A stretch of 64,000 bases of DNA from Bradyrhizobium sp. ISRA430 (GTDB taxonomy: Bacteria; Pseudomonadota; Alphaproteobacteria; Rhizobiales; Xanthobacteraceae). Location: contig NZ_CP094516.1 in NCBI RefSeq assembly GCF_029909975.1, forward strand, positions 5,208,001-5,272,000, read 5' to 3'. Positions 21,722 through 36,326 of this stretch are shown one piece after another (position 1 is the first letter of the stretch; every line of letters starts with the position of its first letter). The notes beneath the pieces are model-generated. The model worked only from the letters and a program-made list of their open reading frames with translations. It was not told the DNA's origin and searched no databases. Made by a program: the position numbers and the translations under genes.

Positions 21722-22420
21722 TTATATTTGTCGGACCGCTCCGACGATTCTCGGCAGGTCCGCCAGCGTTTCGATCTCGTGGTCGGGGTTTCCCGGCAGA
21801 CGCTCTTTGCGCTGTCGGTAGCGATTGCACCAGATGACTTTCATCCCAAAGGACGATGCGGCGTAAGCATCCCAGGCGTTTGAAGACTGAAAAGAGATTT
21901 GCGGGGCTGGAATGCCTAGTTGATCAACCGCAAGCTGATAGACTCGAGGATCCGGCTTGTAGACGCCGACGTCTTCGACCGACAGCACCGCATCAAGCAA
22001 GCTATCGATCCGCGCATTCTTTACCGCCGAATCAAGCATCGCGGGCGTTCCGTTCGACAGGATTGCGGTCTTCAGCCCTGCAGCCTTCAACTGCTCGAGA
22101 ACGCCTTGCACTTCCGGGAACGTGTCGAGCGTCAAGTAAAGTTCCATCAAACGATCGCGGAGCCCCTGCTGATCCAGCATCAAAGTCTCCAACGAAAAGT
22201 CCAAAGCGTCGCCCGTCACCTGCCAGAAATCAGCGTGACGTCCTTGTGCGGCGCGAAGCCAGGTGTATTGGAGCTGCTTTTCGCGCCAAAGGGTGGTCAG
22301 CTTGTCGAAGCTATCGCCGAGCACATCGCGGCAGCGGCGCGCAGCGGACGCAAAATCGAATAGCGTCCCGTAAGCATCGAAGACACAGGCCCGCACGGCG
22401 CCCGACAAGTTCGTGCTCAT
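21722..22420 (-). CDS. (S)-2-haloacid dehalogenase, type II
   Basis: 232 residues of the HAD superfamily. The nucleophile Asp is in ACVFDAYGTLFD near residue 15, motif II is ILSNGTP, the motif III lysine is in VYKPDPRVY, and motif IV is QSSNAWDA. The SSN and W/Y residues around the cap fit haloacid dehalogenase type II rather than a phosphatase. It hydrolyses 2-haloalkanoic acids to 2-hydroxy acids. The gene is intact. Confidence 0.9.
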   Translation of the reverse strand: MSTNLSGAVRACVFDAYGTLFDFASAARRCRDVLGDSFDKLTTLWREKQLQYTWLRAAQGRHADFWQVTGDALDFSLETLMLDQQGLRDRLMELYLTLDTFPEVQGVLEQLKAAGLKTAILSNGTPAMLDSAVKNARIDSLLDAVLSVEDVGVYKPDPRVYQLAVDQLGIPAPQISFQSSNAWDAYAASSFGMKVIWCNRYRQRKERLPGNPDHEIETLADLPRIVGAVRQI

Positions 22421-22776
22421 AGCCTTAACCTCCCTCGATCTCTAGACGGTCGAGCTTTGCGTGAGGTCCTATCCCTCCGGAAACCGCAAGTTGCGCTTTG
22501 GGCCTATTCGTTCTCGGCCCGCCGAATGTTACACCGATATCGACCAATCTTATTGCCAAGCCGATCTTATTGATAAGCCGAAGCCCAGGCTAGGCGTTGG
22601 CGAGTTTGGTCGCGGCGCGGTCATTCAGCGGCCTCCCGGGTAACCTGTGGTCAGTTCGAGGCATCAACGCGCAAGCGGAATTTTCTGAGATGGCCTGGTA
22701 ACTTTTCGGGCCTCCGAGCGAACTAGTGCCGCAGGGACCTTGAGGTTCGTGCGGCAACCGACGGAGATCGAAAATC
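22421..22776. other. Intergenic, 356 bp, with a possible sigma-F promoter
   Basis: No gene is visible. It separates the leftward dehalogenase from the rightward thioredoxin/CcdA pair. It contains short A/T-rich repeats near 22546-22580 (two gatcttattg-like words) and the promoter-like element at 22698-22722. Confidence 0.5.
22698..22722 (+). promoter_or_regulatory. Weak sigma-F-like promoter before the thioredoxin/CcdA pair
   Basis: GTAACT (one mismatch to GTAACC) at 22698-22703, a 15-bp spacer beginning tttcgg, and CGAA at 22719-22722. It resembles the bufA1 promoter element in spacer length and in the tttcgg start. The start codon lies 55 bp downstream. Confidence 0.45.
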
Positions 22777-23157
22777 ATGCCTTCAAAACTCCACATGGCC
22801 TCGCTGGCGACGGCGACACTCCTCATGTCGTCACTTGTCGCTTGGGCGGGGCAACCGTTTGACGCGAAGGCGTTTCAATCCGCCCAAGCCGAGGAAAAGG
22901 CCATCCTCGTTGACGTTACCGCGTCCTGGTGTCCGACCTGCAGGCAGCAACGGCCGACTGTCCAGCAGATCGAGAAGGAAAAGCCGGACCTCGTTGTCTA
23001 TGAGGTCGATTTCGACAAGGCGAAGGACGTGCTGAAGCAGTTTCGTGTCCAGTACCAGAGTACGCTCATCGTCTTCCGCGGCAATAAAGAGGTTGCACGT
23101 TCGACCGGTGAAACCGACCCCGCTCTCATCCGCGGGTTGATCGCGAAGGCGTTCTGA
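22777..23157 (+). CDS. Periplasmic thioredoxin-family protein
   Basis: 126 residues: signal peptide (about 1-25, ending AWAG), then a thioredoxin fold with TASWCPTCRQQRP (Cys52-x2-Cys55) and a FRVQYQSTLIVF segment where the cis-Pro loop normally lies. The cis-Pro position appears to read QST rather than xP, which is unusual. It is followed 2 bp later by ccdA, which would supply electrons. Likely role: periplasmic disulfide reduction or metal-stress thiol repair. Confidence 0.88.
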   Translation: MPSKLHMASLATATLLMSSLVAWAGQPFDAKAFQSAQAEEKAILVDVTASWCPTCRQQRPTVQQIEKEKPDLVVYEVDFDKAKDVLKQFRVQYQSTLIVFRGNKEVARSTGETDPALIRGLIAKAF

Positions 23158-23159
23158 CG

Positions 23160-23885
23160 GTGGTCGGTATCGGCAACCTGGCGCTCGGCTACGCTGCCGG
23201 CGCGTTATCGACGTTGTCGCCCTGCGTGCTGCCTATTCTGCCCATCATCCTTTTCGCGGTGATCGAGCGGAACCCATGGGGACCGCTCGCGCTGGCTGCG
23301 GGACTCTCGACTTTGTTCGCGGCCGTCGGAATTGTCGTCGCGGCGGTCGGCTTCAACATCGGAATTGATCCGTCTACGTTGCGGCTCGTGACTGCTGCCC
23401 TGATCGCCGGAATGGGAATCGTTCTTCTCATTCCGACTCTTCAAGGCAGATTGACAACCATTGCGACGCCGGTGGCAACCAAGGGACAAACCCTGCTTGA
23501 GCGGGTTCAGCCGTCGGGACTTGGCGGCCAGTTCGTCCTTGGCACTCTGCTTGGAGTGATCTGGTCTCCTTGTTCGGGCCCCACGCTTGGGGCAGCGGTT
23601 GGGCTCGCCGCCCAGGGCAACAGCATCGCGAGCGCAGCGGTCACCATGATCAGCTTCGGTCTTGGTGCAGCGACGCCGATCCTGGCTCTCGCCTACGGCT
23701 CAAGACAAGCCATCTTCGCGCGCCGCGACTGGCTGAAGCGCGTGTCGCTCATCGGAAAGCCTCTCATGGGCGCGGCCTTCGTTGGCATCGGCGCCTTTGT
23801 CCTTACCGGCCTCGACAAGATCGTCGAGGCCGCCTTGACGCGCGCCATGCCGGAGTGGCTGGTCACCGTGACGACGCGGTTATAA
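23160..23885 (+). CDS. CcdA-family thiol-disulfide membrane transporter
   Basis: 241 residues from GTG 23160, 2 bp after the thioredoxin stop. Six to seven hydrophobic helices carry both redox cysteines: LSPCVLPILPI near residue 22 and WSPCSGPTLGAAVG near residue 137. Unlike the CcdA-like protein at 17030-17728, both halves are complete. It moves reducing equivalents from cytoplasmic thioredoxin to periplasmic partners, most likely the preceding gene product. Confidence 0.92.
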   Translation: MVGIGNLALGYAAGALSTLSPCVLPILPIILFAVIERNPWGPLALAAGLSTLFAAVGIVVAAVGFNIGIDPSTLRLVTAALIAGMGIVLLIPTLQGRLTTIATPVATKGQTLLERVQPSGLGGQFVLGTLLGVIWSPCSGPTLGAAVGLAAQGNSIASAAVTMISFGLGAATPILALAYGSRQAIFARRDWLKRVSLIGKPLMGAAFVGIGAFVLTGLDKIVEAALTRAMPEWLVTVTTRL

Positions 23886-24017
23886 CCGCACCGTCGGGTA
23901 GGAAGTGGCACCGCAGGGCGATAGTTGGGTGCGCTGCCGGGCTCCGGACCCGGCCGCGAAATCTTGGCATGATTGGAATCGCGCCGCGCCACTTTCACCA
24001 ATGCCAGTGAAGCAATG

Positions 24018-24254
24018 CTAGCGGTGCGCCCTGACGTGCCGTTTCGCGTGGCTCTTGCCCGGAGGCAGGAATGCCATCGCGGCCAGGCTGTGCGCCGGCG
24101 TGCGCACGCCTGCATGCAGGATACCTGCATTCGGATGCATCGACGCGAATGCACCCGGCTCCTGTTGGGCGAACTGAGAGGGCTGTGCGAATACCGGCGT
24201 TGCCGCCATCATCAACAGAATGGTCGCCGCACTGAGGCTTGTGAGTTTGGTCAT
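24018..24254 (-). CDS. Small secreted protein, putative sigma-F target
   Basis: 78 residues from ATG 24254 (aGGAGaaa-like site ahead of it). A clear signal peptide (TILLMMAATPVFAQ) is followed by a short mature part rich in Ala, His and Gln, with several His and Met residues (SMHPNAGILHAG) and a basic C-terminus. No cysteine is present. I do not recognise a family. An exact GTAACC-N16-CGAA element lies about 195 bp upstream on this strand. The His/Met content would suit weak metal binding, which is only a guess. Confidence 0.6.
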   Translation of the reverse strand: MTKLTSLSAATILLMMAATPVFAQPSQFAQQEPGAFASMHPNAGILHAGVRTPAHSLAAMAFLPPGKSHAKRHVRAHR

Positions 24255-24448
24255 GGCGTTTCTCCATGTATCGATCACTAGCGAAATTCGTAGATCCTCG
24301 AAGAACGACTCGGGCAAGTCCGTCCGATCGTTGATGACGCGCGGACTCTCCTGTCTGCGCTCCTCAACGCTCAAGAAGGCCTAGCGAGAGCGAGTCGAGA
24401 ATCGTTTGAATTGCGGAATGCACTTCTGTTGAATTATTTGTTGAATTA

Positions 24449-24474
24449 TTCGGAGTAACGTCTGCGAAGGTTAC
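24449..24474 (-). promoter_or_regulatory. Sigma-F-type promoter (exact N16)
   Basis: On the minus strand: GTAACC (24469-24474), 16 bp, CGAA (24449-24452). It points towards the small secreted protein gene at 24018-24254. The 356-bp gap 24255-24610 holds nothing else that I can see. Confidence 0.72.
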
Positions 24475-24610
24475 GCTCTCGCGGCGACGAGAAGCCGCCT
24501 GCCCTTACCTTCGCAACAGCCGCCCAAGTGCCGCGCCCGCGAGCGCACACGATACGATTGCAGGAGCTGTCGATGGGCCTACAAAGAGGTCACGTGCGCG
24601 GCAACGAGCG

Positions 24611-25642
24611 TCACTTGCGATTTTCCGGACCGGCCGATGCTCTCTTGTGAATGGGGCTGTCCGGCCTGAAGGCGTGGAATGCAAATGCAAAGGCGACGTC
24701 GTAAGGAATGTCGGACAACTGTCCGCCTTGCTGTCGCTGCACGACGACATTGCCGATGTCGCGGCCACCTGCGACGGTCCCCTTGTCGAGCGCGGAGGTT
24801 TGCCCGGCCTCCCATTTGAGAACGATATCGCCGGCTTCGATCGTGCCACGCTCTCTCAGCAGCGGCAGCGACCATGCTTCGTGATACCCCGGCCTGGTTT
24901 CGACGGCGATGACGCGTTCCATCGGATCGATGTCGTCAGGCAACGAGCCGTCATAGAGGAACGGCTTTTGCCCGCTCGCGTCGTACCCGGCATAAGGATT
25001 CCTGCCGTAGTTGCGCGCGCCAGGGTCGTTCGGGATCAGCACCTGCCCGTGAGGAAAGCGCTGACGGAAGCGCTCAAAGGATTCCAGGCGCGAAGGAACC
25101 AGCCGAAGGTGTTTCCCGCTCATGACGCCCACGATGGCATCGCCCCCGAATTGTTGCCACCAGCTCTCGGTCTGACGGTCGTACATCACCAGATCCGAGT
25201 TTCGGAGCTTGCCCGTCGTGCCGAAATCGAGAACGCGGTTCTCAATTGTGCGCTCGAAGACAAGCGAGCTGTTGCAGAGCGGGCAATAGGTGATGGTTAC
25301 AGGCATACCTCCCACAATATCGTTCACAATCTCGTGCCAGATCAGGATGCTCAGCGGGTACGCGCGCGCGTCGTCGCGGATGGCAAGCGAAATGACCGGC
25401 TCCGCGTTACCGATCCGGGCGGCCGATGCGGAGGCAGCGCCGTCGTTAAGTCGCTCGAAGCGAGGCTTATCGATCGACCGAATGCCGTCCTTGGGCGGGC
25501 CGCCTGACTTGATCTCATTTAGCGGGACGGTGTGCTGCGAGAAATCGGTGTGGGGCCATTCTGCTCGCCAACGACTTGGCTCGGCCGCGGCACTGCCAAC
25601 AATCGTGGTGCCAGCGACGACAAGCGCCGGGGCAAGCGCCAT
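24611..25642 (-). CDS. DUF3179 periplasmic protein, putative sigma-F target
   Basis: 343 residues from ATG 25642. The frame is open upstream to 25762, but that start lies inside the predicted promoter. The internal ATG gives a proper signal peptide (ALAPALVVAGTTIVGSAAA). The DUF3179 core contains VTITYCPLCNSSLVFER, a Cys-x2-Cys, then RNSDLVMYDR and SWWQQFGG. The biochemical function of the family is unknown. The CPLC motif could bind metal or undergo redox reactions. The gene is divergent from the bufferin operon and has an exact sigma-F-type element about 100 bp upstream. Confidence 0.85.
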   Translation of the reverse strand: MALAPALVVAGTTIVGSAAAEPSRWRAEWPHTDFSQHTVPLNEIKSGGPPKDGIRSIDKPRFERLNDGAASASAARIGNAEPVISLAIRDDARAYPLSILIWHEIVNDIVGGMPVTITYCPLCNSSLVFERTIENRVLDFGTTGKLRNSDLVMYDRQTESWWQQFGGDAIVGVMSGKHLRLVPSRLESFERFRQRFPHGQVLIPNDPGARNYGRNPYAGYDASGQKPFLYDGSLPDDIDPMERVIAVETRPGYHEAWSLPLLRERGTIEAGDIVLKWEAGQTSALDKGTVAGGRDIGNVVVQRQQGGQLSDIPYDVAFAFAFHAFRPDSPIHKRASAGPENRK

Positions 25643-25743
25643 CAAACGTATCCAGTTTGCCAATCTCAATGTTTCGCCGTTGAGGATTCTTAATCTTGCC
25701 TCAGCGCCTCGGATCACGACCGGAGTCGATTTAATCTCCACTG

Positions 25744-25769
25744 TTCGCTTGATGGACCACAATGGTTAC
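25744..25769 (-). promoter_or_regulatory. Sigma-F-type promoter of the DUF3179 gene (exact N16)
   Basis: On the minus strand: GTAACC (25764-25769), 16 bp, CGAA (25744-25747). It implies a transcript start near 25737 and a 5' leader of about 95 bases to ATG 25642, and it rules against translation from 25762. Confidence 0.75.
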
Positions 25770-25936
25770 CGGCGGGTCGGGTTGCGAGGCGAGGCTCCCC
25801 GCTGACGAAGGACGGCTTTGCCGCGGTTACGCGGCGCTGCACACAAACCGCGGCAAAGGCGTCATGAATTCCACCCAGCTACCGACCACCTCCAGCCAAC
25901 CGGCTTTGCGGAACCGGGGGCTCCAGGTCTTTCGGC

Positions 25937-25961
25937 GTAACCTTTCGGCGTCCCGAACGAA
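25937..25961 (+). promoter_or_regulatory. Sigma-F-type promoter of the bufferin operon (N15)
   Basis: GTAACC at 25937-25942, a 15-bp spacer starting tttcgg, and CGAA at 25958-25961. It lies 82 bp before the bufA1 start and back to back with the DUF3179 promoter. The rest of the 25643-26043 gap shows no gene. Confidence 0.62.
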
Positions 25962-26043
25962 TCTTTTCTTGGCGGGCAGGTTCGGCCTGCCGCACGGGCG
26001 ACTGCGTACGCTCGCACAACAACCTGCAATCGGAGGAACAGAA

Positions 26044-26391
26044 ATGTCCAATCGCACGCTATCCGCACTGGTCGCCGGCGCCTTTGTCGCAGCCGTGGGA
26101 TCGCTCGCCGTCGCACCGGCCGCGGCGCAGATGAAGAAGGGCGACATGGAAAAAATGATGAAGGAAAAGCAAGCCGAGACAATGAAGGCGCTGAAGGGCG
26201 GCAAGGTGGAGAAGTGCTTCGGCGTGGCGCTGAAGGGTCAGAACGACTGCTATGCGGGGCCGGGCACGACCTGCGCCGGGACCAGCACGGTCGACTATCA
26301 GGGCAATGCATTCAAGCTCGAGGCCAAGGGTACCTGCACAACCATACAGACGCCAAAAGGGCCGGGAAGCCTGACCGAGAGGAAGGCCTGA
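26044..26391 (+). CDS. bufA1: Bufferin precursor (BufA1 type, DUF2282)
   Basis: 115 residues from ATG 26044, with cggagga ahead. Signal peptide (about 1-29, APAAAQ), a charged linker, then the bufferin core with four cysteines at about 58, 69, 77 and 98 in [20 protein letters not shown] and KGTC. In the family, an MNIO enzyme with a partner protein modifies some core cysteines into heterocycles, giving a periplasmic copper- or soft-metal-binding peptide. The next two genes encode that pair. The modification itself is inferred from homology. Confidence 0.9.
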
Positions 26392-26451
26392 TACCGTATC
26401 GTGGGCGGGCACCCCGCTGCCTGCCCACTCTCCTCTGATCGGAGGTTGCCC

Positions 26452-27339
26452 GTGTCGCTTCCGTCGTCTTGCACAAGAAGTTGCATCCCCGCACGCGGCG
26501 GCGTCGGCCTGAAGGCCGAGCATTACCGCACGATCCTCGAGCAGCAACCCGACATCGGCTTCTTCGAAGTCCATGCGGAAAACTACATGGGCGCGGGCGG
26601 GCCGCCGCACCGCTATTTGTCGGCCATTCGCGAGCGATATCCGCTCTCGCTCCACGGCGTGGGTCTTTCGATCGGCGCCGATCGGGCGCTCGATAAGGAA
26701 CATCTTAAGCGCCTCAACCGGCTAATTCTTCTCTACAGGCCAGGCTTGTTTTCGGAGCATCTGGCGTGGTCATCCCACGACAGCGGGTTTCTCAATGACC
26801 TGCTGCCTGTTCCCTATACCGCCGAGACGCTCACGCGCGTCATCGAACATGTGGATCAGGTGCAGAACGCACTCGGCCGGCAGATGCTGCTGGAGAATCC
26901 GTCGACCTACCTCGCCTTCGCCGAAAGCACTTACTCCGAGATCGACTTCATCACCGAGGTGGTCCGGCGCGCTGGCTGCGGCCTTCTGCTCGACGTCAAT
27001 AACGTCTACGTCGCCTCCACCAACCAGCAGTGGGATCCGTTCGCCTACATCGACGCCTATCCGCTCAAACATGTTCGGGAAGTTCATCTCGCCGGCCATA
27101 CGCGAGACGCCGACGGCAAGGGGCGGCCACTCCTGATCGACACCCACAATCACCCCGTCGACGAAATCGTTTGGGATCTCTACGCGCATACGGTCCGGCT
27201 CACCGGGCCGCTTCCCACCTTAATCGAATGGGACGCCGACGTGCCGACCTGGCCCACGCTGCAACGCGAAGCCGAATGCGCCGAGGCGATCATGTTCGCA
27301 ACCAAATCGGAGGCCGTACGTCGTGCAGCAGCTCGCTGA
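26452..27339 (+). CDS. bufB: MNIO (DUF692) bufferin-modifying enzyme
   Basis: 295 residues from GTG 26452, with cggagg 6 bp ahead; the frame is open upstream but the homology and ribosome site favour this start. TIM-barrel DUF692 family: GVGLKAEHY, FFEVHAENYMG, SLHGVGLSIG, LLLDVNNVYV and EVHLAGHT provide the His/Glu/Asp ligands of the multinuclear iron cluster. It should oxidise cysteines of the bufA1 product. bufC begins inside its last codons. Confidence 0.93.
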   Translation: MSLPSSCTRSCIPARGGVGLKAEHYRTILEQQPDIGFFEVHAENYMGAGGPPHRYLSAIRERYPLSLHGVGLSIGADRALDKEHLKRLNRLILLYRPGLFSEHLAWSSHDSGFLNDLLPVPYTAETLTRVIEHVDQVQNALGRQMLLENPSTYLAFAESTYSEIDFITEVVRRAGCGLLLDVNNVYVASTNQQWDPFAYIDAYPLKHVREVHLAGHTRDADGKGRPLLIDTHNHPVDEIVWDLYAHTVRLTGPLPTLIEWDADVPTWPTLQREAECAEAIMFATKSEAVRRAAAR

Positions 27340-28111
27340 AAGGCAGCGCGATTTCGCTGCATCTGTGCTCGATCCAGCGCTCCCGATGCCCGAGGGTCTT
27401 CTTGGCCCGGACGGTGAGCCGGATGCGAAGCGGTTCGCCGTCTATCGCAACAATGTCGTGGTCAGCCTGATCGAAGCGCTGCAGCACGCGTTCCCGGCCG
27501 TGCACCGCGTTGTTGGCGACGATTTCTTTCGCGCCATGGCACGCGCCTACGTCATGGTCCAGCCGCCGCGCTCGCCAATCATGCTTGACTATGGTGCCGG
27601 CTTCCCGGACTTCATCCGGAACTTCAAGCCCGCGGCCGGGCTGCCCTACTTGGAAGACGTTGCACGGATCGAGCGCGCCTGGACGGAAGCATATCACGCA
27701 CCCGAGGCTTCGCCGATTGATCCAAGCGCATTCAGCGAGGTCGCCCCCGATGAGCTGCCTGCAATGCGGCTCGAGCTTCATCCTTCGCTGCGTCTGGTCC
27801 GATCGCAGTTTCCCGCGCTGGCCATCTGGCAGATGAACGTCGGCGACGGCATCCCGGCTCCGGTCGATCTGGCTTCCGGCGGCGAGGACGCGCTGATCAT
27901 TCGCCCCGCGGCCGACGCTGAGGTTCGCTTGATCCCAAAGGGCAGCCTGGAGTTCATCCAGGCACTGCGCGACGGAAGGCCGGTGCTCGCTGCGTTAAAG
28001 GAAGCTTTGACTGCGAATTACCGCTTCGATCTCTCGGCCAATCTTTCCGATCTAATGCGCGCGGGTGCCCTGGTCGGGTACAGCCTGGCACAAGAGGCGG
28101 CCCAGACATGA
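27323..28111 (+). CDS. bufC: BufC-type substrate-recruiting partner (DUF2063)
   Basis: 262 residues from GTG 27323, overlapping bufB by 17 bp with ggagg at 27309-27313. The N-terminal DUF2063 'putative DNA-binding' domain starts LAERQRDFAASVLD and contains RFAVYRNNVVVSLIEALQ and FPAVHRVVGDDFF. A C-terminal domain follows from about residue 140. The partner protein presents the precursor peptide to the MNIO enzyme. Overlapping reading frames support a stable BufB-BufC complex. Confidence 0.9.
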   Translation: MQQLAERQRDFAASVLDPALPMPEGLLGPDGEPDAKRFAVYRNNVVVSLIEALQHAFPAVHRVVGDDFFRAMARAYVMVQPPRSPIMLDYGAGFPDFIRNFKPAAGLPYLEDVARIERAWTEAYHAPEASPIDPSAFSEVAPDELPAMRLELHPSLRLVRSQFPALAIWQMNVGDGIPAPVDLASGGEDALIIRPAADAEVRLIPKGSLEFIQALRDGRPVLAALKEALTANYRFDLSANLSDLMRAGALVGYSLAQEAAQT

Positions 28112-28611
28112 CCGTGCATGTGAACATCGCAACGCTCGAGAGTGCCACTCGCGTACTGGCCGATTGGCTCGCCCGCGTCGCTCGGGTGTTGGCTCCGCCG
28201 GTGCTGCGGATCGCGCTTGCTGTGCCCTTCTTCAAATCCGGGCTAACCAAGTGGGACGGCTTCCTGTCGCTGTCGCCGGCTGCCGAGTTCCTCTTCGAGG
28301 ACGAGTTCAAGCTGCATATTTTTGGTCAAGCTTATGACTTCCCTTTGCCCACCGTGGTCGCATACCTCGACGGCATCGCCGAGATCGTGCTCCCCATCCT
28401 GCTCGTTGTTGGCCTTGCAACTCGTTTTTCCGCACTGGGGATCCTGGTCATGACCGGCGTTATTCAATTGGTCGTGCCGGAGGGATGGGCGAATTTCCAT
28501 CTGCCGTGGGCTGGCTTGGCAGTAGCCATCATCGCGCTTGGACCTGGGACGCTCTCCGTCGATCATTTGCTTGAACGGCTGCCGCGGCCCTGGAAGCAGG
28601 GAGGCGCCTGA
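28108..28611 (+). CDS. DoxX-family membrane protein of the bufferin operon
   Basis: 167 residues, start overlapping the bufC stop by 4 bp. Four hydrophobic segments in DoxX order: VLRIALAVPFFKSGLTKWDGF at the start, IAEIVLPILLVVGLATRFSALGILVMTGVIQ in the middle and LPWAGLAVAIIALGPG at the end. DoxX-type proteins are frequent fourth genes in bufferin operons. The function is not settled; quinone-linked redox support of thiol chemistry at the membrane is one possibility. Confidence 0.88.
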   Translation: MTVHVNIATLESATRVLADWLARVARVLAPPVLRIALAVPFFKSGLTKWDGFLSLSPAAEFLFEDEFKLHIFGQAYDFPLPTVVAYLDGIAEIVLPILLVVGLATRFSALGILVMTGVIQLVVPEGWANFHLPWAGLAVAIIALGPGTLSVDHLLERLPRPWKQGGA

Positions 28612-28669
28612 TGTTGGCGAGCTCCCGTTCCTCGTTATATGTGCCTCGAGCCCAATGGAACGCTCGGTC

Positions 28670-29302
28670 ATGACGCACGACTCTCGCAGCCGCGGACTTT
28701 CGCTCAGGCTTGTCGGGAAGCATGAGAGCGGCGCGCACGAGACAGCGTCGGTCGCCAGAGATGTCGACTGGTCGATCCTGATGGCCTGTGCACAGGAGGG
28801 AGACCGAACCGCCTATCACCGGCTGCTGCAGGAAATCACGCCGTATTTGCGTTCTCTTGCGGCGCGGTGGCACCGTGACCCCGGCGATGTTGAAGACTCT
28901 GTTCAGGATGTCCTTCTGACCATCCATTCGATCCGAAAGACCTACGACCCGGCCCGGCCATTTGCGCCGTGGCTGGTTGCAATTGCGAACCGGCGTTTCA
29001 TTGACCGGCTGCGCCGTCAGGGCCGCACCAGAGACCGTGAAATACCTTTAACCACCGAGCATGAAACCTTTTCCGAACCTCAAGCGAACCTGGAAGTGAA
29101 GCAGGACAGGCTGGAGCTTGAAGGCATGGTCAACGATCTGCCCCCTGCGCAGCAGAACGCCGTCCGGCTGCTCAAACTCAAGGAGATGTCATTGAAGGAG
29201 GCCGCGGCGCTGAGCGGCATGTCGATCAGCTCCCTCAAGGTCAACGTCCACCGTGCGCTGAAGAGCCTTCGGAAAATGCTGGTCGATCGGAGCGAACCGT
29301 GA
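28670..29302 (+). CDS. ECF sigma factor (SigF-like)
   Basis: 210 residues from ATG 28670 (ATG 28655 is the alternative). Sigma region 2 covers about residues 35-105 (AYHRLLQEITPYLRSLAARW, DVEDSVQDVLLTIH, PWLVAIANRRFID). Region 4 covers about 145-200 (LPPAQQNAVRLLKLKEMSLKEAAALSGMS, SSLKVNVHRALKSLR). It overlaps the NrsF-type gene by 4 bp. The pairing and the bufferin context match the Caulobacter SigF/NrsF metal-stress system. It should recognise the GTAACC/CGAA elements found around it. Confidence 0.9.
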   Translation: MTHDSRSRGLSLRLVGKHESGAHETASVARDVDWSILMACAQEGDRTAYHRLLQEITPYLRSLAARWHRDPGDVEDSVQDVLLTIHSIRKTYDPARPFAPWLVAIANRRFIDRLRRQGRTRDREIPLTTEHETFSEPQANLEVKQDRLELEGMVNDLPPAQQNAVRLLKLKEMSLKEAAALSGMSISSLKVNVHRALKSLRKMLVDRSEP

Positions 29303-29970
29303 TCAAGACACCCGATCTCATTGCTTCCCTTGCGGCGAACGCCACGCCGGTACGGCGGCTGCGGCCGCCGGTCATGCGGGCGGCGTGCTGGCTCCTGCTT
29401 GCAGCGGTCGTCTTGACGCTGCTGGCCGTCAACCAGGGAATTCGCCCCGACCTGGTTCGGCGGCTGCAGGAGCCGGCCTTTGTCGTCTGCATAGCGGCCT
29501 CGCTTCTGACCGGGGTACTCGCGGCGATCGTTGCCTTCCTCGTGAGCCTCCCCGACCGGTCGCGGCTCTGGCTTCTGCTTCCGATCCCGGCGCTGATCCT
29601 GTGGCTTTCGAATATCGGCTATCAGTGCCTCACTCAATGGGTCGCTATTGGACCTGACGGCATGAGTTTTGGGGAGGCCGCGCGCTGCTTCGCTACGCTC
29701 GTGCTGACCAGCCTGCCATTGTCGCTCGCGATGCTGGTGATGCTGCGCTATGCGGCTCCGCTTCGCCCAATCGCCGCGACCTTCATGGGTAGCTTGGCGG
29801 TCGCTGCGATCACGGCAACGGCACTGTCGCTCTTCCACGTCATCGATGCGACCGCGATGGTCCTGATGTGGAACTTCGGAACCGCAGCTCTGTTCGTCGG
29901 CCTGGCAGGTCTGTTCGGTCGGACAATGTTCCGATGGGCCGCGCCTCGAACGCTATACGCACGAGACTAG
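29299..29970 (+). CDS. NrsF-type membrane anti-sigma factor (DUF1109)
   Basis: 223 residues from GTG 29299, overlapping the sigma gene by 4 bp. A short cytoplasmic N-terminus (LIASLAANATPVRRLRPP) that would hold the sigma factor is followed by six hydrophobic helices. Two membrane or loop cysteines (VVCIAAS; GYQCLTQW) and one more (ARCFAT) are visible. In the family such cysteines sense metals or oxidants and release the sigma factor. This is the likely sensor of the island regulon. Confidence 0.9.
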   Translation: MIKTPDLIASLAANATPVRRLRPPVMRAACWLLLAAVVLTLLAVNQGIRPDLVRRLQEPAFVVCIAASLLTGVLAAIVAFLVSLPDRSRLWLLLPIPALILWLSNIGYQCLTQWVAIGPDGMSFGEAARCFATLVLTSLPLSLAMLVMLRYAAPLRPIAATFMGSLAVAAITATALSLFHVIDATAMVLMWNFGTAALFVGLAGLFGRTMFRWAAPRTLYARD

Positions 29971-30093
29971 GCGTTGAGGTCACTGAAAACGTTCGGTGAC
30001 GGCAGGCCGCATTTCTTCCCGCGCCCAGGGCTCAGGGGATCACAGGCCTCGATGCCGAGTTCTGATAGAAGAAACTGAGAAGGAGCAAGACAC

Positions 30094-30663
30094 ATGACCG
30101 ATTTCCCACACCTGTTTCCGAGGCGGGCCGTTCCACCTCTTCGAGTTGACCTCGCGAGCGGCGGCACCTTCGATCTTGCGCGCGAGAAGCCTGCGCAGTT
30201 CACGCTTCTCGTGTTCTACCGCGGCCTTCACTGCCCGATCTGCAAGACCCAGCTTAGGGACCTGGAAGCAAAGCTCGATGAGTTCGACAAGCGCGGCGTT
30301 GCGGTGGTGGCCGTATCGTCCGATACGAAAGAGCGGGCCACACAGACCATGGACGGCTGGGGATTGACGCGGCTGCGTCTCGGCTACGGCCTCGATCTGG
30401 CGGCGGCGCGGCGGTGGGGCTTGTTCATCTCGTCAGGGCGCGGCATGACCTCCGTCGGAGTCGAAGAGCCCGCGCTTTTCTCCGAGCCGGGACTCTACCT
30501 GATACGGCCGGACGGCACGCTCTACTTCGGCAGCGTCCAGACCATGCCGTTCGCGCGACCGCACTTCGCCGACATTCTCGCCGCAATCGACTATGTCCTG
30601 AAGAACAATTACCCGGCGCGCGGCGAAGTCATGGATCTGTCGGAAGCAGCCCCGGCAGCGTGA
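30094..30663 (+). CDS. AhpC/TSA-type peroxiredoxin-like protein
   Basis: 189 residues, no signal peptide. FYRGLHCPICKTQLRDLE gives a Cys47-x2-Cys50 pair at the redoxin active site, where a typical peroxiredoxin has a single peroxidatic Cys preceded by PxxxT. This is the 'AhpC/TSA family' form resembling thioredoxin-like reductases. GLYLIRPDGTLYFGSVQ is the cis-Pro-side strand region. It follows the anti-sigma gene by 123 bp with its own ribosome site (gaaggagc). Likely thiol peroxidase or disulfide reductase. Confidence 0.85.
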   Translation: MTDFPHLFPRRAVPPLRVDLASGGTFDLAREKPAQFTLLVFYRGLHCPICKTQLRDLEAKLDEFDKRGVAVVAVSSDTKERATQTMDGWGLTRLRLGYGLDLAAARRWGLFISSGRGMTSVGVEEPALFSEPGLYLIRPDGTLYFGSVQTMPFARPHFADILAAIDYVLKNNYPARGEVMDLSEAAPAA

Positions 30664-30734
30664 CGCGACGCAACGGCACTCCGCGAAACGCACGCGATGA
30701 GCGTGATCGCGCTGGGCAAAGCTGAAAATGGGCC

Positions 30735-31721
30735 ATGAGAATTGCTATCGCGCCATTGGTGCTGGCAATGGCGCTCCGATTGGGGGCGGCGATACCTGCT
30801 ACTGCCCAGACATTTACTGAATTCACTTTACCTACTCCCGCCAGCCGTCCCTCCGCAATCACGGCAGGACCAGACGGCGCGCTGTGGTTCACCGAGGCCG
30901 CGGGGAAGATCGGGCGAATCACCTCCGATGGCACCATAACCGAGCTCCCAATCAAGGGGGGCGGCATTTTGCATTCCATTACAACGGGGCCTGACGGCGC
31001 GTTGTGGTTCACAGAGTTCACCTCCAAGAGGATCGGGCGCATTCCGACCACCGCCACGGCAGAAAACCTGCAACTAACCGAATTCGCGATCCCTGGGCCG
31101 GCCGGACCACTTGGCATAACGAGCGGGCCAGATGGTGCCCTGTGGTTCATCGAGCCGGTCGGAGGCAAAATCGGGCAGATCACGACCACCGGCGTGGTCA
31201 CCGAATTCCCGATCCCCTCGGCCAAGAGCGGAGAGATCACGGCTGGACCAGACGGCGCGCTGTGGTTCACATATGCTCGTGGCAAAATCGGGCGGATTGC
31301 CACCACGGGCGCGGTCACCGAATTCACGATCCCTCCGGAGGATAGCAGCCCCGGGAGTATTACGACCGGGCCCGACGGCGCGCTGTGGTTCGCCGAACCG
31401 GTGAGTGGCAAAATCGTACGAATGACTACCGATGGCAAGATAACCGAATTCGCGCTTCCCAATCCCTATTCCCAGCCATGGGGCATCACGACGGGGCCAG
31501 ACGGCGCCTTGTGGTTTACCGAATCCGCTTGCGTTCGCCAGCCGGGTCCACGCTGCGCCATCGGCAACAAAATCGGTCGGATCACGACGACCGGTTCAGT
31601 CACCGAGTTCGCGATCCCGTCGGACGGTAGCGGGCCTCACAGCATCACGAACGGGCCCGACGGCGCGCTGTGGTTCACCGAGTACTATGGAAGCAGGGTC
31701 GGACGCCTGGTGCTTCCTTGA
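30735..31721 (+). CDS. Secreted virginiamycin B lyase-like beta-propeller
   Basis: 328 residues. Signal peptide to about residue 24 (IPATAQ). Seven repeats of about 40 residues follow, each with GPDGALWFTE-like blades ending GKIGRI and TEF.IP. This is the Vgb/streptogramin-lyase propeller. Vgb-like folds are widespread and mostly not antibiotic lyases; here it may be a scaffold or binding protein. The repeats are highly similar at DNA level, suggesting recent repeat turnover. Context is metal stress, but no link is shown. Confidence 0.88.
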   Translation: MRIAIAPLVLAMALRLGAAIPATAQTFTEFTLPTPASRPSAITAGPDGALWFTEAAGKIGRITSDGTITELPIKGGGILHSITTGPDGALWFTEFTSKRIGRIPTTATAENLQLTEFAIPGPAGPLGITSGPDGALWFIEPVGGKIGQITTTGVVTEFPIPSAKSGEITAGPDGALWFTYARGKIGRIATTGAVTEFTIPPEDSSPGSITTGPDGALWFAEPVSGKIVRMTTDGKITEFALPNPYSQPWGITTGPDGALWFTESACVRQPGPRCAIGNKIGRITTTGSVTEFAIPSDGSGPHSITNGPDGALWFTEYYGSRVGRLVLP

Positions 31722-32208
31722 CCTACACGATTGTCGTTGGAGATGGAGAAAACACAGACGCGCCGTGGTATCGTCCAGCCAAACGCCGCGGTATTCTTCA
31801 TGTGCCGACTGACATCAACAGGGATCATCGCGATGATGGAGCCCGTGGTCGGTCTGGTTGAACGTCTCCTGAAGCGAGTCATCGTCGTCGCGATCAAGGT
31901 AGACGACAACTTCCACATCAATGCCAACCCGGCTTCTTAGCCGATTTCTATCGCCGCAAAAGAGAAGTAAGCGGGTTCAGCCTCATCAAGGCGGCGAGGA
32001 GGGTGGCTACAGCGCGGCGCGGTTGGGCTGTGCGACCATGCAACCTTGAGCCCGAGGAAATGCTTGTCCCGAGACCGTCTGACCCAAAATTTATTCTCAA
32101 TGGCCGTAACCTTCTCGGCAGAACTATCGAATGGCATTTTGGGGTAGCTGCACGTCTCGCTCGGCGCGAACCGTCTTGCGTCCTCATCAATCTTGGAGCA
32201 GGGATTCA
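31722..32208. other. Intergenic, 487 bp
   Basis: A 69-codon frame (31731-31940, TTG start) is open but resembles nothing I know and lacks a good ribosome site. The clear signal here is the sigma-F-type promoter at 32106-32131. Confidence 0.5.
32106..32131 (+). promoter_or_regulatory. Sigma-F-type promoter (exact N16)
   Basis: GTAACC at 32106-32111, 16 bp, CGAA at 32128-32131. It points towards the secreted protein starting at 32209, 77 bp downstream. Confidence 0.75.
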
Positions 32209-32874
32209 ATGAACCTAGCAAACTATGCAGGCCGCTCGTTCGGTGCACTACTCACGTTGGCACTGACGGTCCTTTCGGTACCTAGTCAAGCCGACGAGGC
32301 GATTCACCTGGATTTCACGGCGCACGCCTCCTTTTTCTCGGCTGAGACGCATCAGCCGAAACCGCTTGACCCGCATGTCTTCGTTGCGGACGCGTCCGCA
32401 GCCGCCGCGGTGGGACCTCAAAATATACAGCACGTGGCTGGCATCCGCCCGGCGCTGATTGACCAGGACCCAAAGACTGCCCCTCTCGTCAACGCCAAGG
32501 GTGAAGCCTTGGGATTCGATCTCGGCGACTGGCTCGCGGCCAAAGGCACCGTTACCATCACTCCGTCTACCGGTGGCAAGGTCGAGATTTCGGTTCAGTT
32601 CAGCCACTTGCAACCGGGCGGCCATTACAGCCTTTTCGAAAATCATTTCGACCAGAAGCCCGTCGGCTTCACCCCGCTCGACGACACGGGCAAGACGAAC
32701 GATTTCGTGGCCGGAGCGGATGGAACCGCCAAGCTTACGGTGATGGCTCCGCAGAAGCTGACCCACGACAATGCGGTACTGCTCGTCTACCACAGCGATA
32801 AGACCGCACATGGCGAGCAGCGCGGCGAAATCGGCGTCAACGCCCATCATCAGCTCATCGCCAGGATACAGTAA
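32209..32874 (+). CDS. Secreted protein of unknown function, putative sigma-F target
   Basis: 221 residues from ATG 32209, with tggagcaggg ahead. Signal peptide to about residue 28 (VPSQADE). The mature protein is His- and Asp-rich (HASFFSAETHQPKPLDPHVF; HYSLFENHFDQKP) and ends in a domain with LLVYHSDKTAHGEQRGEIG and NAHHQLIARI. The second half has the look of a CHRD- or superoxide-dismutase-like beta fold, but I cannot assign a family. No cysteines. The His clusters and the upstream sigma-F element suggest a periplasmic metal-binding role. Confidence 0.78.
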   Translation: MNLANYAGRSFGALLTLALTVLSVPSQADEAIHLDFTAHASFFSAETHQPKPLDPHVFVADASAAAAVGPQNIQHVAGIRPALIDQDPKTAPLVNAKGEALGFDLGDWLAAKGTVTITPSTGGKVEISVQFSHLQPGGHYSLFENHFDQKPVGFTPLDDTGKTNDFVAGADGTAKLTVMAPQKLTHDNAVLLVYHSDKTAHGEQRGEIGVNAHHQLIARIQ

Positions 32875-33089
32875 GCCTACAGGGGTAGGAGTGATCGCCT
32901 CGCGCGGCCCCTTCCAGCTCATCGTTCCGGATGTGCCGAGCATCGGCGCCACCGGCGCCTATCCGGATGTGCTGTCCCCTGATTTCGTGGTGCCAAGCTC
33001 GATTCTGCTGCACGCGTTGTCGCTGCGGCAGTTGTACCGGCGAGCCAAGCCTCGTGCCTAGGCCGCGCGAGGCTTCGTTGTTGCCCGGA

Positions 33090-33920
33090 CTATCCTCCTT
33101 TGGCAGCAATCAAGATCGCGTAGCCTAACTCGCCCGCCCCTATCGCTTCCAGCACGCGCCGCGTGAAATCCTTCACCATCGCAATATCGAACCCTGGCAG
33201 CGATAGCTTGTTCAAGCCCACCATCACTTCGGTCATGAGAAGTCGCGTGCGGATCTGGTTCACGAAGTCGATCAACGCGCCATTGTGCACTTCAGTTGCC
33301 ACTACCCTTAGACCGGCTGCGGCGAGCAGGGCCCCGTATTCCGTGAGCGGCTGAGCATCGGCTATGCAGGCAATCCACGCCGCAAGGCACTGAAGTTCGG
33401 ACGGCAGGGTCCCTCGGCGCGTCGGGTCGCTTAGACCGACTTGCCCACCCACGCGAAGCACGCGCGCAAATTCCGTCGCGGCAGACGCCTTGTTTGGGAA
33501 CGTGCACAGCGCGCACTCGCAAACGATTGCGTCGAACGAGGCATCGGCAAAGGGCAATCGCTCGGCATCCCCGCAATAAAAGGTGACCTTGTCGCTCAAG
33601 CCTCGCTCGCTGGCGCCGCGTTTCGCCTCCTCGATATTGCGCGGACTATAGTCAAGGCCGATCACCTCGCACCCGAACCGCGTCGCAAGCGTCAACGCCG
33701 TTGTTCCCCGGCCGGCGGCAACATCCAGAACCCGCTTTCGCGGTCCCAAGCCCAGCATGCGGCCGAGCCGCTCGGTCATCTCGGTGCCGCCTGGATGCAG
33801 CGCGTCGCCCAGCAGCAGCTTCACTGCGTCGCTTTCATAGACAGTTGCGCAGCACTGCTTAATCGCCGTGGGCGAAAGTGCGCCTGGCTCGGTTGTGCGC
33901 TGGTTGTCCGCCTCGTTCAT
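33090..33920 (-). CDS. Cysteine-containing class I SAM methyltransferase
   Basis: 276 residues. SAM motif I VLDVAAGRGTTALTLA, post-I GLDYS, motif II FDAIVCECALCTFP, motif III LRVGGQVGLSDPT. Extra cysteines are notable: KQCCATVY near residue 23 and CECALC in the active-site strand. This recalls arsenite-methyltransferase-like enzymes that bind soft metals, although the full ArsM cysteine set is not evident. Its start overlaps the radical SAM stop by 4 bp, so the two act together. Substrate unknown. Confidence 0.85.
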   Translation of the reverse strand: MNEADNQRTTEPGALSPTAIKQCCATVYESDAVKLLLGDALHPGGTEMTERLGRMLGLGPRKRVLDVAAGRGTTALTLATRFGCEVIGLDYSPRNIEEAKRGASERGLSDKVTFYCGDAERLPFADASFDAIVCECALCTFPNKASAATEFARVLRVGGQVGLSDPTRRGTLPSELQCLAAWIACIADAQPLTEYGALLAAAGLRVVATEVHNGALIDFVNQIRTRLLMTEVMVGLNKLSLPGFDIAMVKDFTRRVLEAIGAGELGYAILIAAKGG

Positions 33921-35482
33921 CGGACGTGCGTGCGGTCGCCGAAGTCGAATACGACGGGTCTTGGCTTGTAGGCTCGGCCTTCCCGCCTGGCGCGCCGTCG
34001 CTCTGGCTCCATGGCATTGAGCTGCCGCCGCGCCTGCTCGCGATAGCCGACCGAATTGTAGGCGCAGAACGGAATCTGCTTATCCCCCGGCAGCAGAAAT
34101 TCCTTGCAGCACTTCATGAGGTTCTTTTGATTGAAGGTCCAGGGGTCCATGAAATCTTGGAGCATGATCATGATCATGCTTTTCGCGATCTCGTTGATCG
34201 CCAGCCCATCCGGAAGCGCGCACGCTTGGCACGATATCGCGACCTGCTGCAGCGATTTTTCCGAACCTGCGACAGAGGACGACGACCACAGGCCTTCCAG
34301 CGCCGTCCTGACTTCGTGGCTGAAATCCGGTACGATCCGGTTGGTGATGTAGTCGAGGTAGTCGTTGACGTTGATGATGCGCGGCAGTGGGGTGACCTTA
34401 TCGCCTTCGACGAAGGCATAGGTCACCGAATTGCACGTCGGAAAGCAGCACGGCACTGGCACAAAGTCGGAGGCGACGAATTTGCCGCCCGTTTGGATCT
34501 CGATCTGCCGAATGATATCGGGAATCGTCATCCGGCTCATCGGGTCGTGGTTCATATGCCGGCCTGCGTGAAATGCCGGCTGAAAGGTGATGCCGCGGAT
34601 GGTCGGATGTTCGATCGCAAATTCGACGATTCGGCCGATTTCACGCTCGTTGACGCCGCGCTCGATGGCGGGGACGATGGTCACGTCCAAGCCGATCTGC
34701 GCGAGCCGGTCCAGGGCGAGAAGCTTTTCCTCCAGGAGGTCCGGCTCGCCGCGAATGATCCGATAGGTATCCCGCTCAAAGCCGTCGAACTGGAAGTAGA
34801 GCGCGGGCCTCACCTCGTTGAGCTGTTCGAGGAATCGATCGTCGCGGGCGATGCGCTTTCCGTTGGTGTTGATCATAACGAAGCGGATATTGCGGGCGTA
34901 TGCGGCGCGGACGAAATCGATGATCTGCGGGTGCATCGTCGGCTCGCCGCCGGAAAACTGCACCACCTCGGGCTGACCTTCCGTCCGCACGTAATCGTCG
35001 AGCATCTGCTCGACTTCTTCCACGGTGAGGCTGAAGCCGGGCGCTGCATCGGCAAAGCAAAGGGGACAGTCCATGTCGCATGCACTATTGACCTCTATGA
35101 TGCCGAGGCAGGCGTGCTGCTCGTGGTCAGGACAAAGGCCGCAATCATGCGGGCAGCCATGTTCGACAGCCGCTCCGTGGGCCAGCGGGATCGTGCCCGG
35201 CTTGTTGTAGCGCGCGAACGAGATGTAGGCATCGGCATCGCCGTACACGAGCGACATGAACGGCCCGCACTGCGGGCAACGCTTGCTCATATAGACTTTG
35301 TTGTCGCGCAGAAGAATCTTGGCATCGATAACCCGCCGGCAGGCAGGGCAGATACTTCGCGTCAATTCATGGAATACATAGTCTGAATCGCCACGATGAC
35401 CGTTGGCAATCTCGCTTGCGCCGGCGTCCCGACCAACGTCAATGGCCTGCTTGGCACCTAAGTCAAGAATGCGCTCGTTCAT
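33917..35482 (-). CDS. Radical SAM enzyme of the tetraether-synthase/MJ0619 type
   Basis: 521 residues. N-terminal rubredoxin-like knuckles (Cys45-x2-Cys48; Cys69-x2-Cys72) are followed by a cysteine cluster HGCPHDCGLC (Cys110, 114, 117) and Cys125. The radical SAM motif is CDMDCPLC (Cys135-x3-Cys139-x2-Cys142), then the SAM-binding FSGGEPT. A SPASM-like cysteine-rich C-terminal region has VPCCFPTCNS, SCQACA and MKCCKEF. The layout matches the family containing archaeal tetraether lipid synthase and MJ0619 pterin methylase. It is coupled to a methyltransferase and lies 7 bp after a VKOR gene. In bacteria such an enzyme could modify lipids or a small molecule. Confidence 0.9.
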   Translation of the reverse strand: MNERILDLGAKQAIDVGRDAGASEIANGHRGDSDYVFHELTRSICPACRRVIDAKILLRDNKVYMSKRCPQCGPFMSLVYGDADAYISFARYNKPGTIPLAHGAAVEHGCPHDCGLCPDHEQHACLGIIEVNSACDMDCPLCFADAAPGFSLTVEEVEQMLDDYVRTEGQPEVVQFSGGEPTMHPQIIDFVRAAYARNIRFVMINTNGKRIARDDRFLEQLNEVRPALYFQFDGFERDTYRIIRGEPDLLEEKLLALDRLAQIGLDVTIVPAIERGVNEREIGRIVEFAIEHPTIRGITFQPAFHAGRHMNHDPMSRMTIPDIIRQIEIQTGGKFVASDFVPVPCCFPTCNSVTYAFVEGDKVTPLPRIINVNDYLDYITNRIVPDFSHEVRTALEGLWSSSSVAGSEKSLQQVAISCQACALPDGLAINEIAKSMIMIMLQDFMDPWTFNQKNLMKCCKEFLLPGDKQIPFCAYNSVGYREQARRQLNAMEPERRRARREGRAYKPRPVVFDFGDRTHVR

Positions 35483-35489
35483 TCGGCTA

Positions 35490-35948
35490 TCACCCTAATT
35501 TCCATACCGACCACAGCAGCACCGGCGATAAGAACGCAGTCGTCAGGCAATAGAAGCAATAACCTCCAAAAATCATCATATCGCGCACACCGAGAATGTT
35601 TGCGAGCGTTGCCGCGGTCGAAAGCACCAGCAACACGATCCAGGCCCAGCGACCCAACGGCGCGAGCAATAACGCGACGATCACGATGTAAAGGGCGGCG
35701 CCGATATAGCCGTCGGGAATGCCAAACGGTCGCGCGAACGGAGCATTGGCGACCCCTTCGCAGCCCTCGCCGAAAAAGGGACAAATGAGGCGACCGACGA
35801 GCCGGCTCTGATATAGCCCGACGTAGAGCATGGCTGCAGCACTCGCTAGTGCGACAGCAAATGCAATATAACGATACACGCTCATTCGTCTGGCCAAATC
35901 CCTCGTGGCTTCAAATGCCGCAGTAGGCTGGGCTCGATGATTTATCAT
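35490..35948 (-). CDS. Vitamin K epoxide reductase-family membrane protein
   Basis: 152 residues from ATG 35948 (ATG 35885 is possible). Four hydrophobic helices. Loop cysteines are in LICPFFGEGCEG (Cys56, Cys63), the quinone-side segment is FGIPDGYIGA, and the active pair is GGYCFYCLTTA (Cys131-x2-Cys134). This is a bacterial VKOR with all four redox cysteines, able to make disulfides using quinone. It lies 7 bp upstream of the radical SAM gene and downstream of an exact sigma-F-type promoter, so it is the first gene of a three-gene stress operon. Confidence 0.88.
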   Translation of the reverse strand: MINHRAQPTAAFEATRDLARRMSVYRYIAFAVALASAAAMLYVGLYQSRLVGRLICPFFGEGCEGVANAPFARPFGIPDGYIGAALYIVIVALLLAPLGRWAWIVLLVLSTAATLANILGVRDMMIFGGYCFYCLTTAFLSPVLLWSVWKLG

Positions 35949-35997
35949 CAACCGCCTGCCGCGCCGCGCCTGCACAAAATGATAGCCGTTGTGGAGG

Positions 35998-36023
35998 TTC
36001 GGCTGGGCTCTGAGAAAGGTTAC
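35998..36023 (-). promoter_or_regulatory. Sigma-F-type promoter of the VKOR/radical SAM operon (exact N16)
   Basis: On the minus strand: GTAACC (36018-36023), 16 bp, CGAA (35998-36001). It lies 50 bp upstream of ATG 35948. The remaining gap to the FTR1 gene (36024-36326) shows no gene. Confidence 0.75.
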
Positions 36024-36326
36024 CAGCACTCAGAAATTTTATTGCGTAGAACCCTTTGCAGCTCGTTTTTGAGAGCGGCTGATGTCCCAGCATGGTCACC
36101 GCCCGCCGGGACCTCGATGCTGTTCACTTCGAGGCAGGCGACACAGCACTTCTCGGGTCGCGTGCATGCGGCTTGCGCCTGGCGCAGTTGGCAGCGAGCG
36201 GGTCAGCGGCCCGGCGGACAGGCCTCAAAAGAAGTTGACCTGGAGCCGAATTAGAACGCCTCAAATTGCACCGACCCGAAACCGGCGGTACGACCATCGT
36301 CGGGCCCAACTTTCAATTGGCATCCC

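Follow-up and report, generated by a model that had tools for sequence, protein, structure and literature searches.

A cluster of ECF16-type promoter-like boxes around a sigma factor/NrsF gene pair on an insert in Bradyrhizobium sp. ISRA430

We analyzed a 64,000-nt stretch of DNA from Bradyrhizobium sp. ISRA430 (the window; positions 5,208,001–5,272,000 of a single-contig genome of 8,564,906 bp). The nearest named relatives in sequence searches were mostly Bradyrhizobium. Within the window, promoter-like boxes of the form GTAACC-N15/16-CGAA cluster around the genes for an extracytoplasmic function (ECF) sigma factor of group 16 type (ECF16) and an NrsF-type anti-sigma factor, on an insert that we call the island (coordinates in Table 1). 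It is very likely, in our judgment, that these boxes are promoters of the island’s own ECF16 sigma factor and operate as a single stress switch. The proposed regulon is bounded and testable (six boxes in ~13 kb). It would also link several uncharacterised families to what is probably a copper/thiol stress response, namely a Tes-like radical SAM protein with its methyltransferase and VKOR partners, DUF3179, and a family of secreted proteins for which a superoxide dismutase (SOD) fold is predicted.

An earlier note on this DNA had listed four exact copies of GTAACC-N16-CGAA and two N15 variants, each upstream of a gene and directed toward it. All four exact copies were found at the same places and strands, compared to a mean of 0.04 over 100 shuffles of the window, none of which reached four. 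Of the two N15 variants, the one preceding bufA (25937–25961) was the single exact N15 match in the window, whereas the one preceding the thioredoxin gene reads GTAACT and has one mismatch. The six elements are thus five exact boxes and one near match, with perhaps a seventh at 22507. All six point at a gene, whose start codon follows CGAA after 54 nt (thioredoxin), 194 nt (78-aa gene), 101 nt (DUF3179, to the downstream ATG), 82 nt (bufA), 77 nt (221-aa gene) and 112 nt (VKOR). The spacer sequences vary between boxes. The SigF consensus given in the note was correct: GTAACC-N16-CGAA is the sigma-F-binding sequence in Caulobacter (PMC3511200), and tGTAACc-N16-CGAA is the ECF16 consensus (PMC3420878).

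Sites with at most one mismatch numbered six (N16) and four (N15) in the window. Near matches alone prove little, because 1.8 and 2.0 such sites, respectively, are expected by chance. Three further one-mismatch sites, at 6996, 26544 and 29063, were judged to be chance matches; site 26544 is inside bufB, and site 29063 is inside the sigma gene and recurs in the sigma genes of relatives, as conserved coding sequence would.

A scan of the whole genome had been set as the test of the proposal, which would fail if the pattern were equally common elsewhere. The exact N15/16 pattern occurred at 14 sites genome-wide, with five in an 11.6-kb stretch of the window and nine elsewhere. At the rate seen in the rest of the genome, 11,575 bp should hold 0.012 sites (Poisson P = 2e-12). 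A reversed-pattern control was commoner than the pattern itself (50 versus 14 sites genome-wide); thus, the clustering and not the genome total stands out. The bases TT directly followed GTAACC in 4/5 exact sites here and in 0/9 exact sites elsewhere in the genome. The correspondingly refined pattern, GTAACYTT-N13/14-CGAA, gave five genome sites, all within 22698–36023, and its reversed control gave two. Because the TT extension was picked after viewing the boxes of relatives and of the window, the refined scan is no independent test, whereas the scan with the exact pattern is.

We counted box conservation in 19 stretches including the window (430,590 bp), scoring GTAAC(C/T/A)-N15/16-CGAA in the 330 nt that precede an orthologue, provided that it had at least 40% identity and enough upstream DNA. 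The 19 stretches held 72 boxes on both strands, with 2.8 expected after base shuffling. Boxes preceded 11/13 thioredoxin orthologues (leader 34–64 nt; the unboxed ones were in loci L041 and L043), 11/11 bufA (78–84 nt), 5/5 DUF3179 (88–103 nt), 10/12 VKOR (a looser 21–128 nt), 5/6 of the 221-aa gene (77–114 nt), 3/3 counted of the 78-aa gene (186–194 nt) and 2/6 HAD orthologues. The VKOR exceptions were L043, where the gene is within a long run behind one box, and G009a, where VKOR is unboxed beside nrsF. Genes unboxed in the window were rarely boxed across the stretches, the window included: SelL-like peroxiredoxin 1/10, FTR1 0/2, Vgb 0/3, CopA 0/4, CueR 0/4 and CopZ 0/3. The totals were 47/56 (including the window’s own seven) versus 1/26 with the window, and 40/49 versus 1/20 without it; the latter are fairer because genes were grouped by their boxed or unboxed state in the window.

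Some choices affect these counts. Untrimmed starts gave 7/12 for VKOR and 3/5 for DUF3179, as the query then extended into or past the box; the counts above use starts trimmed to MSVYRY (VKOR) and MALAPALVV (DUF3179). Matches below 40% identity were excluded, such as the L043 bufA (34%; boxed 51 nt upstream), as were L038 (thioredoxin) and L037 (CopA), where upstream DNA was too short, and stretches G036 and G009b. The uncounted G009b has boxes before bufA- and bufB-like genes, and the uncounted G036 combines a sigma/NrsF pair with a thioredoxin-like match that a GTAACT box precedes by 446 nt. The near-identical sequences L040 and L042 were counted as two.

These data bear on whether every box is genuine. 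Most boxes could be true promoters while one or two are chance or decayed sites, namely that of HAD (22507) and perhaps that of the 78-aa gene (24449); this is compatible with the proposed switch, and we regard it as possible but the less probable case. In its favor, about two sites with at most one mismatch are expected per window, the HAD orthologues are mostly unboxed, the 78-aa gene was counted in three genomes only, and a weaker relative of that gene in G095 (48% over 42 aa, narrowly missing the E cut-off) has no box nearby. Conversely, all three counted 78-aa genes are boxed at nearly constant distance, and G095 keeps a near-identical GTAACA box before HAD.

The sigma factor and NrsF-like genes that the earlier note had seen inside the cluster were borne out by matches to sigma regions 2 and 4 and to the NrsF family. 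The nrsF start (29299) overlaps the sigma stop. Published ECF16 systems comprise Caulobacter SigF–NrsF (PMC3511200), B. japonicum EcfF–OsrA (PMC3420878) and a Brucella pair (PMC8315932), and each of these is described with two cysteines spaced by 50 residues (131/181 or 129/179). By sequence the island anti-sigma belongs to the NrsF family and not to the C129/C179 type: its equivalent of OsrA C129 is C130, its equivalent of C179 is a valine, and C110 is present instead. The C110/C130 pair was found in 18/19 NrsF sequences compared, the exception being a second NrsF (C129, C179) resident elsewhere in the ISRA430 genome.

A class-wide sample of alphaproteobacterial NrsF proteins covered 49 of 62 matches (the two of G000 and 11 further ones were omitted), with a cysteine counted if within two alignment columns. 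Nineteen had C110 and C130 only, 22 had C129/C179 only, seven had the middle cysteine only, and one (L177) had all three; the most distant rows of this alignment are unsure. On these sequences C110/C130 is a common second NrsF architecture, one that is absent from the descriptions in the accessible text of published ECF16 accounts. Because 19 of the 49 sampled proteins, as well as the island’s, have C110/C130 and lack the sensor cysteine of published models, ECF16 sensing may need a second model. Cysteine type was also tried as a predictor of box use and rejected (exact N15–N17 boxes in the loci of 10/20 genes of the C110/C130 type versus 7/22 of the other type).

The resident second pair suggests another source of activation. 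Its sigma factor is 38% identical to the island’s and has GTAACA-N15-CGAA ~51 nt before its match, in line with the EcfF motif of B. japonicum, GTAAC(g,a)-N14-15-(c,t)CG(t,a) (PMC3420878). If the island boxes are real ECF16 promoters driven mainly by this EcfF/OsrA-type system, then the island sigma would add little. The resident pair with its similar upstream box, and the control of a thioredoxin/DsbD-like pair by B. japonicum EcfF (PMC3420878), are consistent with this idea, but we consider it quite unlikely. The island boxes mostly read GTAACC-TT, as against GTAAC(g,a) in the EcfF motif. In addition, boxes of the island type track sigma factors of the island type. In six sigma-bearing relatives the refined pattern occurred at 27 sites, 24 of them in sigma-containing clusters (reversed control 13), and in 12 relatives without a sigma match (E 1e-30) it occurred at eight sites, at background (reversed control 30). 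The three refined sites outside sigma clusters in the six sigma-bearing relatives are, per genome, no more than the eight in the 12 others. These counts are support and not proof, because the genomes are related and some of them helped shape the pattern. As this genome has two ECF16 systems whose boxes differ, promoter specificity could be tested in it directly. Chance, or some other repeated DNA element, is an extremely improbable explanation of the spaced words: nothing speaks directly for it, and against it are the varied spacers, the absence of the refined form elsewhere in the genome, and the retention of boxes before orthologous genes at comparable distances.

Close sigma orthologues (at least 60% identity) were found in 3/35 same-genus relatives (G009, G016, G034); the sigma was also seen in G067, G095 and G118, and the G067 contig is that of L037. 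In L043, a single box precedes bufA-bufB-bufC-DoxX-Trx-CcdA-VKOR-radical SAM-methyltransferase on one strand, and in G016b and G034b a box, Trx, CcdA, SigF and NrsF form one run. Other boxed genes in L039, L040, L041 and L042 encode a DUF427 protein, a DUF6789 membrane protein and a secreted redoxin; regulon content seems to vary between hosts. The earlier note had called the regulon self-contained. This is supported at the promoter level, where refined sites outside sigma clusters are at background in the relatives; it covers only part of the island, however, because the CopA, CopZ, CueR, FTR1, Vgb and SelL-like peroxiredoxin genes have no box in the window.

We favor control of the six boxes by the island sigma factor, and envisage the following sequence of events. 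Without stress, the NrsF-type anti-sigma would hold the sigma factor at the inner membrane. Periplasmic copper, another thiol-active metal or an oxidant would act on NrsF, probably through the C110/C130 pair, and the freed sigma would direct RNA polymerase to start at the six boxes. The inducer is proposed by analogy with other species: chromate releases sigma-F from the membrane, and its regulon in Caulobacter responds to chromate, cadmium and copper (PMC3511200, PMC8224329). In Caulobacter, buf-type operons are under SigF control and the NrsF cysteines matter (PMC3511200), and a sigF::Tn5 mutant grows poorly with copper (PMC8224329). Because sigF-nrsF follows the buf operon in the same direction, we propose that this operon is autoregulated. 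The locus has the DUF2282 precursor with the MNIO, DUF2063 and DoxX genes that together mark a bufferin-1 cluster, and the translated bufA1 precursor has four cysteines. The bufferin peptide and its maturation enzymes would bind copper in the envelope, where Trx-CcdA and VKOR would manage or repair disulfides. The 221-aa protein, without a Pfam match, is predicted to take a Cu,Zn-SOD fold, and conserved His is present in its family; it may remove superoxide. DUF3179 and the small secreted peptide may also act in the envelope, and the Tes-like radical SAM/methyltransferase pair may modify an envelope compound, perhaps a lipid.

Several points weigh against this scheme. Its support comes from sequence, and its expression side is inferred. 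The HAD gene is a weak target, as perhaps is the 78-aa gene, and 9/56 orthologous promoters have no box. Because the genomes are related, the conserved boxes are support and not independent events. A valine replaces the C179 needed for release in OsrA (PMC3420878), so the published OsrA mechanism is not transferable unchanged. The resident GTAACA-N15-CGAA box departs from the island boxes at base 6 and mostly at the following two, so cross-activation by the resident ECF16 system is possible, above all at the GTAACA and GTAACT boxes. Lastly, loss of sigF in Caulobacter did not raise sensitivity to dichromate or cadmium (PMC3511200); a resistance role is thus printed, in the accessible text, only for copper and reportedly for stationary-phase peroxide.

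The operon behind the rightmost box combines VKOR with a radical SAM protein and a methyltransferase. The radical SAM protein matched PF04055 (68.4 bits), and its CX3CX2C motif (C135, C139, C142) was invariant in 12 sequences. It fell below the curated cut-offs for Tes (NF045702, 316.5 of 450) and TrsS (NF045646, 315.1 of 490), and 13/18 cysteines invariant in the family alignment paired with a cysteine of Tes (7tol). In a quick tree, the sigma-linked radical SAM genes grouped as a single clade, surrounded mainly by acidobacterial sequences. Neighbors were surveyed, with crude gene calling, in the best 80 of 122 loci (L036–L115). A methyltransferase gene was directly downstream in 73/80, and three of the other seven loci end within 160 nt; a VKOR gene adjoined on the same strand in 14/80. 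Within 5 kb, a Pyr_redox family (named from one member) occurred in 35/80 loci, an MFS family in 18/80, and a CDP-alcohol phosphatidyltransferase (named from L088) in 8/80, which is a faint lipid cue. The window’s own Pyr_redox-type gene (14295–15638) is 18 kb from the radical SAM gene. Across the 80 loci, the neighbors point to no function for the radical SAM pair. In the acidobacterial loci L067, L076 and L091, ECF sigma matches (45, 32 and 33%) occur together with exact boxes, none of which directly precedes the radical SAM gene. A bolder interpretation is that a mobile ECF16 module, set apart from the host’s ECF16 system by its −35 end (GTAACC-TT versus GTAACA) and its anti-sigma cysteines, once captured an Acidobacteria-centered Tes-like operon, so that copper would induce a lipid change along with bufferin. 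We hold this to be unlikely as a whole; if true, it would mean stress-inducible membrane-lipid cross-linking (tail joining or related C-C chemistry) in a proteobacterium.

The earlier note’s description of the region as an island agreed with synteny. The flanks (up to 1303–1305 and from ~42,552–42,577) are separated by 41.2 kb here and by 1.6, 0.5 and 5.9 kb in G008, G011 and G002, with tRNA-Arg (CCG) at the same edge in all three. These were the 3 of 20 relatives with both flanking genes close on one contig; in the others the right-hand gene was missing, the genes were on separate contigs, or the left-hand gene had paralogues only. We concluded from these alignments that the 41-kb block is confirmed as an insert at the tRNA-Arg gene. 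The claim rests on synteny. The idea that flanking direct repeats bound the island was dropped, as the 64-kb window showed no further copy of the tRNA end; among the direct repeats between 900 and 46,000 are a 109-nt pair (77%; 2589/41735) and a 41-nt pair (90%; 7120/41039). A recombinase-type gene (1274–2908) abuts the tRNA-Arg gene at the left edge. The Vgb-family protein has internal repeats of 114 nt, and nothing marks it as a resistance gene: its match is to a Pfam family, and it is far below the NCBIfam Vgb(A)/(B) cut-offs (253 and 232 versus 600).

Table 1. Features of the window and of the resident second pair (window positions unless stated)
Feature	Position	Strand	Remarks
tRNA-Arg (CCG)	1227..1303	+	left edge of insert
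Large serine recombinase-type gene	1274..2908	-	tRNA end of insert; PF00239, PF07508, PF13408
Island insert with box cluster, ~41 kb	1304..42551	no strand	synteny; right edge between ~42,552 and 42,577
CueR-type regulator, copper P-type ATPase (CopA), CopZ-type protein	17989-21283		on insert; no SigF boxes
Candidate seventh box, GTAACA-N16-CGAA	22507..22532	-	one mismatch; before HAD gene (21722-22420)
Box GTAACT-N15-CGAA	22698..22722	+	one mismatch; before Trx-CcdA
Thioredoxin-like protein	22777..23157	+	PF00085; signal-peptide-like start
CcdA/DsbD-type membrane protein	23160..23885	+	PF02683
78-aa protein	24018..24254	-	signal-peptide-like start; no family match in profile searches
Box GTAACC-N16-CGAA	24449..24474	-	before 78-aa gene
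DUF3179 protein	24611..25642	-	PF11376, 270 bits on longer frame; start inferred at ATG downstream of box
Box GTAACC-N16-CGAA	25744..25769	-	before DUF3179 gene
Box GTAACC-N15-CGAA	25937..25961	+	before bufferin operon (bufA)
bufA1, bufferin precursor (DUF2282)	26044..26391	+	PF10048
bufB, MNIO enzyme	26476..27339	+	PF05114, 356 bits; approximate start
bufC (DUF2063)	27323..28111	+	PF09836
DoxX	28108..28611	+	PF07681
ECF sigma factor, group 16 type	28670..29302	+	PF04542, PF08281 (regions 2, 4); NrsF partner; boxes
NrsF-type anti-sigma with C110, C130	29299..29970	+	PF06532, 110 bits (cut-off 26.8)
Virginiamycin B lyase family protein (Vgb)	30735-31721		Pfam match
Box GTAACC-N16-CGAA	32106..32131	+	before 221-aa gene
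221-aa protein, predicted Cu,Zn-SOD fold	32209..32874	+	signal-peptide-like start; no Pfam family
Methyltransferase	33090..33920	-	nearest NCBIfam DVU_1556 family, 136 bits (cut-off 155)
Radical SAM protein, Tes/TrsS kind	33917..35482	-	profile matches
VKOR-type membrane protein	35490..35885	-	PF07884, 55.2 bits (cut-off 27.5), longer frame; start taken MSVYRY
Box GTAACC-N16-CGAA	35998..36023	-	before VKOR-radical SAM-methyltransferase operon
FTR1 iron permease domain and cytochrome c domains in one protein	36327-38261		divergent from VKOR operon
Resident second NrsF/sigma pair, OsrA cysteine type (L124)	genome G000:C1:2409795-2410973		NrsF 2409795-2410403

Among the open-access literature matches listed, none placed DUF3179, the SOD-fold protein, the 78-aa peptide or a VKOR/Tes-like operon in an ECF16 regulon, and the DUF3179 matches listed were three papers, two about selenoproteins and one about Idiomarina. 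The accessible text of PMC8224329 does not contain ‘VKOR’, ‘vitamin K’, ‘radical SAM’, ‘tetraether’ or ‘DUF3179’, and that of PMC10087280 names an ECF sigma in its reference list only. Similarly, the accessible text of PMC12452194, on bufferin-1 clusters, lacks ‘thioredoxin’, ‘DUF3179’, ‘VKOR’, ‘vitamin K’, ‘DsbD’ and ‘tetraether’, and has ‘radical SAM’ in its references only.

One of the closest parallels is Caulobacter SigF–NrsF, which shares the sigma and NrsF genes, the GTAACC-N16-CGAA boxes and a DUF2282-DUF692-DUF2063-DoxX operon beside sigF (PMC3511200, PMC8224329). The Caulobacter regulon also includes a second operon of buf type and one of YedY/MsrPQ type. The island is different in that boxes precede Trx-CcdA, DUF3179, the gene for the SOD-fold protein, the 78-aa gene and the VKOR-radical SAM-methyltransferase operon, all on one insert; the NrsF cysteines differ as well. 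B. japonicum EcfF–OsrA has the same sigma group and a thioredoxin/DsbD-like pair in its regulon, and the resident pair of the ISRA430 genome shares the OsrA cysteine type. Unlike the island, EcfF–OsrA has the box GTAAC(g/a), methionine sulfoxide reductases in its regulon, OsrA C129/C179 and a response to H2O2 (PMC3420878). Bufferin-1 clusters share the DUF2282 precursor, MNIO, DUF2063, DoxX, sigma and NrsF genes, and the other box-linked operons set the island apart from those described in the accessible text of PMC12452194. The radical SAM protein has the zinc-ribbon and radical SAM domains of Tes and TrsS, and differs in scoring below both curated cut-offs and in having a VKOR gene before it and a methyltransferase gene after it. 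The system thus appears to be of a known kind, an ECF16 sigma/NrsF pair beside a bufferin-1 operon, in which the surprises are a radical SAM operon that was probably captured, a family with a predicted SOD fold and a second type of NrsF cysteine pair.

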